A stretch of DNA of 64,000 bases from Branchiostoma floridae (lineage: Eukaryota > Chordata > Leptocardii > Amphioxiformes > Branchiostomatidae): positions 3,309,962-3,373,961 of the forward strand of contig NC_049997.1 of NCBI RefSeq assembly GCF_000003815.2, given 5' to 3'. Position 1 is the first letter of the stretch. The number at the start of each line of letters is the position of its first letter. The notes below the pieces were generated by a model. The model did no database searches, had not been told where the DNA came from, and saw only the letters and a program-made list of their open reading frames with translations. A program made the translations under genes and the position numbers. This document shows, in pieces, positions 10,558-37,934 of this stretch.

Positions 10558-13500
10558 CTATGCTAATATCTTAGCCACAGCCCCTGCACTGACAGTCCGT
10601 CCCCCCTCACGGATGACGAACCGCAGGCCTTCATCCATGGCGATGGGTTGAATCAGCTCTACTGTCATCTTGACGTTATCTCCTGGCATCACCATTTCCT
10701 ATGGCGAAGTAAATGAAGAAAAAATACATTTGACGCCTTACATTTTCTTTTGAATCACGTGATCCCTCTTGTCTTGTGTGCTAAATTGAAATTAACAAGA
10801 ACAACAATTTTTTTAAACTCAAATTTAGACTTGACATTTCAATTTTAACTTCAGAACAAACGTACTCATTGTGAAAAGCAGGGTACTTAGTCACAGAGTT
10901 TCATCTCACATTTCAAATCAAGACCTATCTTAGTTTCTGCATGTTGTCGAGACTGCGAGATAGCAACACTTTTACAGCTATGAAAATGAATGCTTTCGAA
11001 AGATGGTATTCATTTGTTATAGCTGTAGAAAGTGTTGAAGAACCAGCGCCCCCCCCCCTCAATAAAAACCAGCCCCGTTCGGAGCTTGCAACGGAGACTA
11101 GAGAAGGGGTTCGCTTAAAAGGCTGGGCTGTCTACCAGGCCAGGCTACCTGGCCTGTCTACCTGGCCTGGCTATCACGTCAGGCTACTCAGATCCCCCCA
11201 TTCATAGCCCAATCATATGGCATTCTGCCAAAATAGCTGATTGACAGGCATAGTAATTGCTAATCTTTAACCCTGCAAGTGACCTGAGGTTAACCTGTCC
11301 ACCACTGGCTGGACCCTTCGGGAATGTGTCTGGTAGTGGTAGGCCTTCCTTGCAGCATGTCAGGAACACATTCAAGTACTGTACCTGAGTACTGTGTTGA
11401 GTAAATGCTTTAGGGTTTAGACCTAGAAAACAGAGGTCCTGGGTTCAAATCCTTTGGCACAAAATCTGTGCTGTACAGTACTTTCCCCACTCCAAATTGT
11501 ACAAGGGGGTTGGAGTGATTATTGGCAGTGGAATGAGAGGATTGGGCTCTGTCCTGGACACAAAAAATTGTACATTGGATAACAATCCACAGCCTCAAAA
11601 AGGCTATGTGACTACCGAGATTGTGTATGTCAACATGGCATACTAGCATAGAGAACAAGGAGGTACATGTAATTATACCCCCCCCCCCCCCTGGGTCAGT
11701 ACATTTAGCTTTACAGTGATTTATGCTCTTCCTTCTTGTTGCACGAGCTGAGATGGTTTCTGTTCTACAAGATAGATATTCAATAAAGAAACAAATTTCT
11801 GTTGCTGGCAAGCCCGTTCTTACACACACACACACACACACACATACATACATGTACACACACACATTTACACACACACAAACATACACAAACAGTCAGT
11901 ACTGGTACTTGTGTTCCTAACGCTGCAAGGAAGTCCTACCAGACACATTCCCGAAGGGCCCAGCCAGAGGTGGACAGGCCAACCTCAGGTCACTTGCAGT
12001 GACGGGAGATTAGCAATTACTATGCCTGTCAATCAGCTGAATGCCATATGATGGGGCTATGAATGGGGGGATCTGAGTAGCCTGACGTGATAGCCAGGCC
12101 AGGTAGACAGGCCAGGTAGCCTGGCCTGGTAGACAGCCCAGCCTTTTAAGCGAACCCCTAGAGAAGACAGAAGATTTCCTGTGGTGCACCAACTGTCAAA
12201 TAGTAAGACTAAGAGATAGATAGCAAGAATGAATGTCATCTTTCCAAAGTTTAGACTAGTCCTATTGGCTTACCGTTCCTTCGGGAAGCTCGATCTTTCC
12301 ATTGACGTCCGTGGTTCGGAAATAGAACTGAGGTCGATAGCCTTTCATAAATGGTGTATGACGTCCGCCCTCATCTTTACTCAAGATGTACACCTAGGAA
12401 TCAAAGAAAAAAAGTGACGACTAGCGTAATGTCAGATTACATAATAAAATATGATATGATATGCTATATGATATGTGATAATAGCATCAACAAATTCCTC
12501 AACAATTGTACAAGATGGGAACTTATTCAAGAATTCTGGAACCTAACTACTACGAATGGAACTGATATACTTTACAAAAGTCTTAAATAAGATGTATAGG
12601 AGGATAAACTACATGCCTATTCAGTATATAGTGGAATATATATCATGATAAACGACTTTTTCCCCGCTGCCATAGTTTAAACAACTCCTACCTCAGCCTC
12701 GAACTTGGTATGAGGAGTGATGCTTCCAGGCTTGGCCAACACCTGACCACGTTTCACCTCGTCCTTCTTCGTACCTCTCAGTAGAACACCTATGACCTCA
12801 CCCGCCCTTCCGTCATCCAGCAGTTTCCGGAACATCTCAACACCTAGATACATCGAATATCTGAGCATGAAAGTTCATCTGCTTTGTTAAATTACACAAT
12901 TAGAAAAACAAACCGTTCTCCAACTCAGGAAGTTTTAACCATCGGAATTTTCGACCGTATCTTTCGGTCTTCTCAGACCGAATTTCTCGTTCGACGAATT
13001 TGTCGTTCATCCGAATTTCTCGTTCGACCGAATCTCTCGCTCGTTCGATCGTATCTGTTGTTCGACCGAATCTCTCGTTCAACCGAATCTCTCGTTTGGT
13101 CGAATCTCTAGGTCAGATAACTGAGAAAGACCGGGAAATTCGATCGAGTGAAAATGATTGAATTAGTGAACAGTCTATTTTTCTCATTATCAAATTTCTC
13201 ATTATCATATATCCTTCGAGTTGTCTCATATTTACTACACTTATATTTAGATTAGTATCAGCATAGTTAAGTAGAGGAGGGCTTTGTGCAAGCTATACAG
13301 GCTTCTCCCCTCCTCCGACACTTTTCTTTATTTTGATGTCATCATTTTCACGTGCGAAGGACGTAGACAAACAAAAATGTTGCTTTACCAACCTGTAGAT
13401 GTCGACTTAGCTGTATCCCTTTTCCCAACGATTTCCACTTCGTCTCCAACTTTGATGACCCCACGTGCAATCCGACCTGTCACCACTGTGCCGCGACCTG

Positions 13501-37900: not shown

Positions 37901-37934
37901 CGGAGCCGGGACTGTGGCTAAGATATTTGAATAG
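25968..37934 (+). CDS. Bacterial-type elongation factor Tu, intron-containing (copy B)
   Basis: Nine exons join in frame: 25968-26064, 26577-26740, 31728-31832, 32457-32621, 34293-34419, 35393-35497, 35895-36046, 36595-36714 and 37794-37934 (stop TAG). Every exon has the same length and phase as its counterpart in copy A. The 391 residues begin [16 protein letters not shown] and end [11 protein letters not shown]. Motifs: [83 protein letters not shown]. The SALGALN-GEAKW junction has no insertion, as in bacterial and unlike animal mitochondrial EF-Tu. Differences from the consensus: switch I Thr to Ser (RGISI) and Glu for Ala after the catalytic His (GHED). The first exon is uncertain (see 21802-21900). 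No disabling change is seen. Introns hold retrotransposon tails, MITEs and minisatellites. Confidence 0.85.
26864..27163. mobile_element. MITE, TIR AAGGTGGGTTCACACCTGCG (copy A, 300 bp)
   Basis: The terminal AAGGTGGGTTCACACCTGCG is inverted at the right as CGCATGTGTGAACCCACCT. It lies in the EF-Tu B intron after exon 26577-26740, directly next to a larger relative. Confidence 0.8.
27169..29152. mobile_element. Larger element of the same TIR family (about 2 kb)
   Basis: Left AAGGTGGGTTTACACCTGCG and right CGCAGGTGTAAACCCACCTT are perfect inverted repeats. CpG-rich subterminal DNA resembles copy A. A minus-strand retrotransposon tail (27700-28140) is inserted in it. Confidence 0.75.
27700..28140 (-). 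pseudogene. C-terminal fragment of a non-LTR retrotransposon ORF2
   Basis: The minus-strand frame reads [20 protein letters not shown] then [15 protein letters not shown] and stops at 27848. The C-x2-C...H-x4-C pattern with EDEYHF and CPKY is typical of the C-terminus of many retrotransposon reverse transcriptases. The 3' end includes an AATAAA (minus strand, near 27730). The element is 5'-truncated and has no RT core. Confidence 0.65.
29155..29363. mobile_element. MITE, TIR GCGCTCTCACTGCGAC (copy 2, right end interrupted)
   Basis: ACCCCCTTTCCATTAGACGG and GTGTGACTGAGAAGACAACA match 20703-20933. The right end stops at about 29363, where G/C-rich DNA begins. Confidence 0.7.
29364..31200. mobile_element. 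G/C-end element (GGATTTAGGGGGGGC ... GCCCCCCCTTTGC)
   Basis: The left end (GCGCGGATTTAGGGGGG) and right end (GCGCCCCCCCTTTGCAAAAT then CCTGGATCCGCCCC) form an approximate inverted repeat. It lies in an EF-Tu B intron. The interior holds repeated phrases such as GCTGGTAGACTA-GCTAA (about 30415 and 30600). No coding region is recognised. Confidence 0.4.
31335..31545. repeat. Short possible MITE (CTGCCAAAGA ... CTCTGGCAG)
   Basis: AAACTGCCAAAGA near 31344 and TCTGGCAGTTTTTAA near 31531 form a weak inverted repeat about 190 bp apart. Confidence 0.3.
34081..34114. repeat. Terminal fragment of the 42091-43173 repeat family
   Basis: ATTTCATGGAGGTATGAGGT and CCCCGAACTCTAGTT are the inverted complement of the left end at 42091-42124. 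The rest of the element is not evident. Confidence 0.55.
35337..35375 (+). repeat. Retrotransposon 3' tail
   Basis: AAGCCCTCGGGCATGAACTT then GCAAATAAAT matches 5110-5140. A different tail (GTATACAATAAAGGTATCCA) lies at about 34960-34985 in the previous intron. Confidence 0.45.
35657..35765. repeat. Minisatellite, about 28-bp unit (4 copies)
   Basis: Units of CCCCCCTCCCCCGCATTGGG plus ATATCG, between exons 35393-35497 and 35895-36046 of EF-Tu B. Confidence 0.85.
36050..36490. repeat. Minisatellite, 41-bp unit (about 11 copies)
   Basis: The unit TTTATATGAAATATCACATC plus ATATCTTAATTAAAGCATAGC is repeated with shorter variants lacking TTAATTAAAGC. It starts right after the donor of exon 35895-36046 and its first copies run out of the intron start. 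Confidence 0.95.
36735..37260 (+). pseudogene. 3' end of a non-LTR retrotransposon with poly(A)
   Basis: A frame to 37028 reads [20 protein letters not shown] then [20 protein letters not shown]. The CSCG-x-C...H-x4-CP pattern is typical of retrotransposon C-termini. A 3' UTR ends in CAATAAAAAAAAAA at 37258. It is 5'-truncated and inserted in the last EF-Tu B intron, in the gene's orientation. Confidence 0.7.

Follow-up and report, generated by a model that had tools for sequence, protein, structure and literature searches.

Vibrio-type EF-Tu genes in the lancelet Branchiostoma floridae share their intron layout with the nuclear gene for mitochondrial EF-Tu

A 64-kb stretch of the genome of the lancelet Branchiostoma floridae (contig C19, positions 3309962-3373961, plus strand; hereafter the window) carries two multi-exon genes, copies A and B, which encode EF-Tu proteins of the bacterial type. 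There is strong support for a bacterial origin of their coding sequence: it goes back to a Vibrio-like tuf gene that an ancestor of this animal took up into its germline. Their exon layout, on the other hand, is that of TUFM, the nuclear gene of the host for mitochondrial EF-Tu. The bacterial sequence and the TUFM layout are not jointly accounted for by a plain transfer with introns gained at random, nor by an ordinary mitochondrial paralogue; the best reading, and probably the right one, is that a single transfer was followed by recombination with a TUFM-type gene and then by duplication.

The spliced models of both copies were obtained by joining the GT-AG exons, and all positions are those of the window. 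Copy A, on the minus strand (10558-19508), consists of ten coding exons and nine GT-AG introns with an open frame, and its protein has 394 residues (MSKEKF...KILA, followed by TAG). Copy B, arranged head to head with it on the plus strand (25968-37934), has nine exons and eight GT-AG introns, also with an open frame, and gives 391 residues without a start (EKFERTKP...KIFE, then TAG). With the stop counted, the two proteins share 316 of 392 aligned letters. An earlier reading of the window from its sequence only (hereafter the sequence-only reading) had described two EF-Tu-type multi-exon genes, with copy A spliced to 394 residues from MSKEKF, and the models confirm it. The bacterial-looking MSK start, located in an exon of its own, is present in copy A only. 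The best phase-0 candidate for the start of copy B is, tentatively, MRPKRHTKSGDQ at 21865-21900 on the plus strand (donor CAG|GTAAGG); the segment 21887-21958, which overlaps this candidate exon, matches the 5' flanking sequence of copy A with 80% identity.

The B. floridae genome (513,431,437 bases, 431 contigs) was searched with copy A. The 48 matches corresponded to copies A and B, three further copies (C, D and E) and TUFM, besides weak hits on other contigs. Copy C, also on C19, is near-complete (390 residues without a start), and the 2 kb upstream of it yielded only unconvincing candidates for a start exon. Copies D (C19) and E (C9) are truncated: they retain four domain II-III exons, with open frames, and a weak remnant of exon 6, and no G domain was recognisable in the 10 kb examined around each. 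The longer blocks shared by D and E (above 250 bases, outside a repeat array) have a DNA identity of 92-95% that extends through the introns; in copy D, overlapping self-matches suggest an intronic repeat array. The bacterial-type family thus has five loci, spread over two contigs (C19 and C9) with lengths of 17 and 25 Mb, and the duplication proposed by the sequence-only reading holds, with three near-complete and two truncated copies. A separate ordinary mitochondrial EF-Tu gene, looked for in the same genome, was found on contig C11: this is TUFM, the protein of which is 68% identical to human TUFM. The NCBIfam TIGR00485 scores were 723.3 bits for A, 722.0 for B, 744.8 for C and 574.3 for TUFM, all above the curated equivalog cut-off of 522.4 bits.

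EF-Tu was searched for in 84,980 bacterial and archaeal species, and the best 80 matches were kept; among those listed, Vibrio cincinnatiensis ranked first (83% identity). The top identity to Vibrio-type EF-Tu was 83% for copy A, 87% for B and 84% for C, versus 71-75% to two alphaproteobacteria in a codon-by-codon comparison and 53-55% to the TUFM protein (about 60% at the DNA level). For copy C, E. coli EF-Tu chains gave 720 bits and the best-scoring mitochondrial chain 484. In the length of the loop that follows the SAL motif, A, B and C agree with Vibrio, and both TUFM proteins have a longer one; the C-terminal extension and the YTPVMFSHTW region are found in TUFM only. Alignment and translations thus agree with the sequence-only reading, which had listed a longer SAL loop and a C-terminal extension as mitochondrial traits absent from the copies.

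The trees point to the same source. In a quick search with 91 rows (86 bacterial rows, below 93% identity, drawn from the 108 of 114 loci with a usable frame, plus five animal rows), A, B and C grouped with Vibrio with a value of 96 in the Shimodaira-Hasegawa-like approximate likelihood ratio test (SH-aLRT), and the nearest bacterial rows of TUFM were alphaproteobacterial. TUFM was likewise placed with Alphaproteobacteria in the best 70-row tree; the alphaproteobacterial rows were for the most part the best TUFM matches among 190 genomes, a choice which favours that placement. A 42-row tree took in 29 more loci from the order to which V. cincinnatiensis belongs. There, the copies and seven Vibrio-type rows (V. 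cincinnatiensis and six genomes of its order, chosen after a separate quick tree) formed one clade at 99/99, the copies alone being at 82/77 and the seven Vibrio-type rows alone at 86/75. One clade of copies beside the Vibrio-type rows fits one transfer from a lineage near Vibrio, so that the bacterial, proteobacterial origin claimed from the sequence alone can be narrowed to a Vibrio-like one.

The layout of the introns leads elsewhere. In a protein-guided alignment of A, B, C and TUFM, eight introns were comparable. Those shared by the three copies are at 112, 276, 381, 546, 679, 784, 936 and 1056, and those of TUFM at 109, 276, 381, 546, 679, 784, 936 and 1056, with phases identical to those of the copies; seven of the eight are therefore at the exact TUFM position and phase, and the eighth (112 versus 109) is one codon off. 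The chance of sharing at least seven of eight is 1e-16 if all sites are considered, 1e-8 for AG sites and 3e-7 for AG|R sites (55 sites). In copy A, four of the eight shared sites are AG|R-like and four have no preceding AG (ACAT|, GAAT|, AAGG|, AACG|). Human TUFM variants named c.248-18, c.817+13 and c.922+29 appear in the excerpt of PMC4425372 used here, and the introns that they imply (c.247/248, c.817/818 and c.922/923) correspond to three of the eight sites predicted from the lancelet TUFM. This mapping takes the 455-residue human chain as the basis of the numbering, the excerpt not stating the transcript, but the three sites agree together; the layout is then at least as old as chordates, which means that it belongs to TUFM and was acquired by the copies. 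In the scheme of the sequence-only reading (transfer, then intron gain, then duplication), transfer and duplication stand. The independent, later gain of introns is not borne out, seven exact matches to TUFM being an outcome which that reading itself had called refuting.

The kinship of the copies with TUFM was examined on 70 rows, where the unconstrained tree equalled in log-likelihood the tree with the copies beside Vibrio and TUFM beside the alphaproteobacteria. With the LG+F+R4 model, forcing copies and TUFM together with the alphaproteobacteria cost 114 log units (p = 0.0099 in the approximately unbiased (AU) test, p = 0.0104 in the Shimodaira-Hasegawa (SH) test), and forcing them together inside Vibrio cost 40 (p-AU 0.043, p-SH 0.21). 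With LG+C20 the p-values were 0.0227 (AU) and 0.023 (SH) for the former arrangement, and 0.0145 (AU) and 0.203 (SH) for the latter. Columns were called diagnostic when the TUFM letter was absent from the seven Vibrio-type rows; in about 164 such columns, 395 of the 492 cells of A, B and C hold a Vibrio letter and 32 hold that of TUFM, similar to the 4242 and 350 of 5280 cells in 32 other gammaproteobacterial rows. A firm position of the copies inside the animal mitochondrial clade, named beforehand as one refuting outcome, was found neither in the AU tests nor in the 42-row tree.

These results bear on the possibility that the copies are an old nuclear paralogue of mitochondrial EF-Tu, descended vertically without recent transfer, that has retained a bacterial-looking sequence. 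Such a gene would have the exon layout of TUFM, could show the small excess of codons identical to TUFM (97 of 208 in copy A, for 77 expected), and is compatible with the quick 91-row test, which does not reject a joint clade. It should, however, resemble Alphaproteobacteria most, whereas the copies are closest to Vibrio-type sequences (83-87% versus 71-75%); the joint placement with the alphaproteobacteria is rejected by both the AU and SH tests, and the SAL loop lacks the extra residues of TUFM. We regard this explanation as quite improbable. Also unlikely is a Vibrio-like transfer followed by independent intron gain, in which the match to TUFM would be a coincidence or the product of a strong insertion-site preference. 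It would leave the bacterial placement in the 42-row tree unchanged, and it can draw on the AG|R-like half of the shared copy A sites, on the one copy A intron for which no TUFM counterpart was found and on the lack of enrichment of TUFM letters near introns. Yet the other half of these sites have no preceding AG, and seven exact matches out of eight are hardly expected by chance (3e-7) even with insertion restricted to the 55 AG|R sites. As for contamination or an assembly artefact, which the sequence-only reading had excluded, only the bacterial character of the protein speaks in its favour. The copies are integrated among host sequence, as indicated by their introns (nine of the GT-AG type in copy A), by a host dispersed repeat within one of them and by the spread of the five loci over two large contigs; in addition, the silent-site distance to Vibrio is not finite. 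This explanation is extremely unlikely.

Transfer, recombination with a TUFM-type gene and duplication, the reading that we prefer, could have proceeded as follows. A tuf gene of a Vibrio-like bacterium would have entered the germline of a lancelet ancestor and recombined there with a gene of the TUFM type, which left bacterial exons separated by TUFM introns; either the introns moved into the bacterial gene, or the exons of a TUFM duplicate were overwritten. The chimera would then have duplicated, giving the three near-complete copies, and another branch would have lost the G domain, giving the two truncated ones. The first shared intron, three bases off the TUFM position, might, speculatively, owe its displacement to a junction resolved at a short repeat. 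More specifically, the chances seem to us evenly balanced that the foreign coding sequence was fitted onto the intron layout of the resident homologue in one or a few steps, by recombination ending near splice junctions. The codons identical between copies and TUFM somewhat exceed the expectation from codon usage (97 observed for 77 expected of 208 in A, 89 for 72 of 198 in B, 88 for 75 of 204 in C), and the corresponding values against the Vibrio-type locus L158 depart less from it: 118 for 109 of 310, 129 for 117 of 328 and 108 for 112 of 316. The excess with TUFM speaks weakly for a past exchange, as it could also stem from position-specific codon preference and the three copies do not count as independent cases.

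Several observations weigh against this reading. No TUFM exon sequence was detected in the copies, and there is no enrichment of TUFM residues at exon edges: within three residues of an intron the TUFM letter occupies 9 of 57 diagnostic cells in the copies, and 95 of 608 in the 32 other gammaproteobacterial rows. The extra intron of copy A (MSK|EKF) has no TUFM counterpart that we could find, and one shared intron is displaced by a codon. Some exons, for instance exon 4 in all three near-complete copies and exon 5 in copy C, are better matched by non-Vibrio bacteria in our sample, with the proviso that exons of 35-55 residues are too short for the donor of each to be placed. The SH test does not reject the copies and TUFM together inside Vibrio (p-values of 0.21 and 0.203), nor does the quick 91-row test reject the joint clade (p-AU 0.64), which lay 14.8 units above the free 91-row tree, left unoptimised by the quick search; the fuller searches were given more weight because TUFM is a long branch. 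Finally, to move or keep some eight introns across DNA that is about 60% identical demands an unusual route of recombination.

Among the copies, pairwise NG86 (Nei-Gojobori) estimates gave 0.12-0.14 for the nonsynonymous distance (dN) and 0.41-0.46 for the synonymous one (dS), that is, a ratio of 0.26-0.29; against three Vibrio-type genes no finite dS was obtained with the same method. Third-position GC is 0.36-0.39 in the Vibrio-type genes versus 0.57-0.58 in the copies. We read these values as suggesting a long residence under purifying selection, probably relaxed after duplication. EF-Tu proteins are characterized by a list of GTPase motifs that includes NKxD and SAL. The set is complete in A and C; copy B has RGISI instead of RGITI, i.e. 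a serine for the switch-I threonine, together with DCPGHEDY. The copy A model starts with MSKEKF and has no visible mitochondrial presequence, although further upstream exons are possible; a presequence-like stretch appears to lie upstream of the lancelet TUFM. In our view, A and C would be functional GTPases, and their predicted role lies outside mitochondrial translation. For copy A, with all GTPase motifs intact and no presequence apparent, such a role would be more likely than replacement of TUFM.

In the spliced model of copy A, all on the minus strand, the coding part of exon 1 (MSK; donor gtagga) is at 19500-19508, exon 2 (EKFKRTKP...) at 19223-19319, exon 3 (LAKVYGG...) at 18253-18416, exon 4 (NMIGG...LLARQ) at 17206-17310, exon 5 (...SALGALN) at 15942-16106, exon 6 at 14964-15090, exon 7 at 13393-13497, exon 8 (...KFEAE) at 12692-12843, exon 9 (...LPEGT) at 12274-12393 and exon 10 (EMVMPGDN...KILA, stop) at 10558-10698. 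Those of copy B, on the plus strand, are exon 2 (EKFERTKP...) at 25968-26064, exon 3 at 26577-26740, exon 4 at 31728-31832, exon 5 at 32457-32621, exon 6 at 34293-34419, exon 7 at 35393-35497, exon 8 at 35895-36046, exon 9 at 36595-36714 and exon 10, with the stop, at 37794-37934.

The introns and surroundings of the two genes contain various repeats. A foldback element occupies 11105-12159 in the last intron of copy A; its 124-base terminal inverted repeats are 98% complementary and separated by 807 bases, and a further pair lies inside them. In the introns of copy B, a 5S rRNA-like sequence (32800-32924, minus strand; 46.6 bits, Rfam RF00001), which may be a 5S-derived short interspersed element or a pseudogene, and a tandem array of about 10.7 copies of a 41-base unit (36057-36489) are found. 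The segment 31908-32169 is a young dispersed repeat: 42 matches, itself included, were scored from 946 first-look candidates in the genome, and they are mostly 95-98% identical, with a 71% relative in a TUFM intron. This segment had been the strongest non-exon hit in the comparison with TUFM introns and was discarded as a sign of intron homology, being a dispersed repeat and lying in a non-corresponding intron. Outside the two genes, a THAP plus DDE_Tnp_4 transposase-like frame of 524 residues is present at 838-2409, and C2H2 zinc-finger frames at 43720-44760 and 53156-53827; within 52811-53827, the latter adjoins a frame that matches KRAB weakly, under the cut-off.

With the Vibrionaceae EF-Tu (tuf; TIGR00485) the copies have in common their length, the GTPase motifs (for A and C), the SAL loop length and the C-terminus; they differ in being nuclear and split by eight or nine spliceosomal introns and, for copy B, in RGISI and DCPGHEDY. 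With animal TUFM (bovine 1d2e and 1xb2, human 7a5g) they share the exon-intron layout at seven of eight positions, and are set apart by an identity of only 53-55% and by the longer SAL loop, C-terminal extension and YTPVMFSHTW region of TUFM. Transfers from bacteria to animals are known in which, as here, a coding sequence of bacterial origin has become part of an animal chromosome, is interrupted by introns and has been duplicated. The introns of such genes are usually read as later gains at unrelated places; here they coincide with those of the resident homologue. In titles and abstract openings we found no report of a bacterial EF-Tu in a lancelet, nor of a transferred gene with the introns of the resident homologue; at that level, a study of metazoan glyoxylate enzymes (PMC1630690) has one mention of 'shared intron positions'. 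A partial parallel is offered by plant mitochondrial genes acquired from a parasitic plant, which reportedly underwent gene conversion against the host genes (PMC3022774). There too a transferred gene recombines with a resident homologue, but the case concerns organelle DNA passing from plant to plant, unlike the bacterial and nuclear genes, about 60% identical, considered here.

If our reading is correct, the lancelet family would be an unusual case of a chordate receiving a core gene of translation, which then multiplied. Transferred genes would have a route to spliceability distinct from gradual intron gain, and the source of their introns would become directly testable. Shared intron positions alone would then be no proof of vertical descent.

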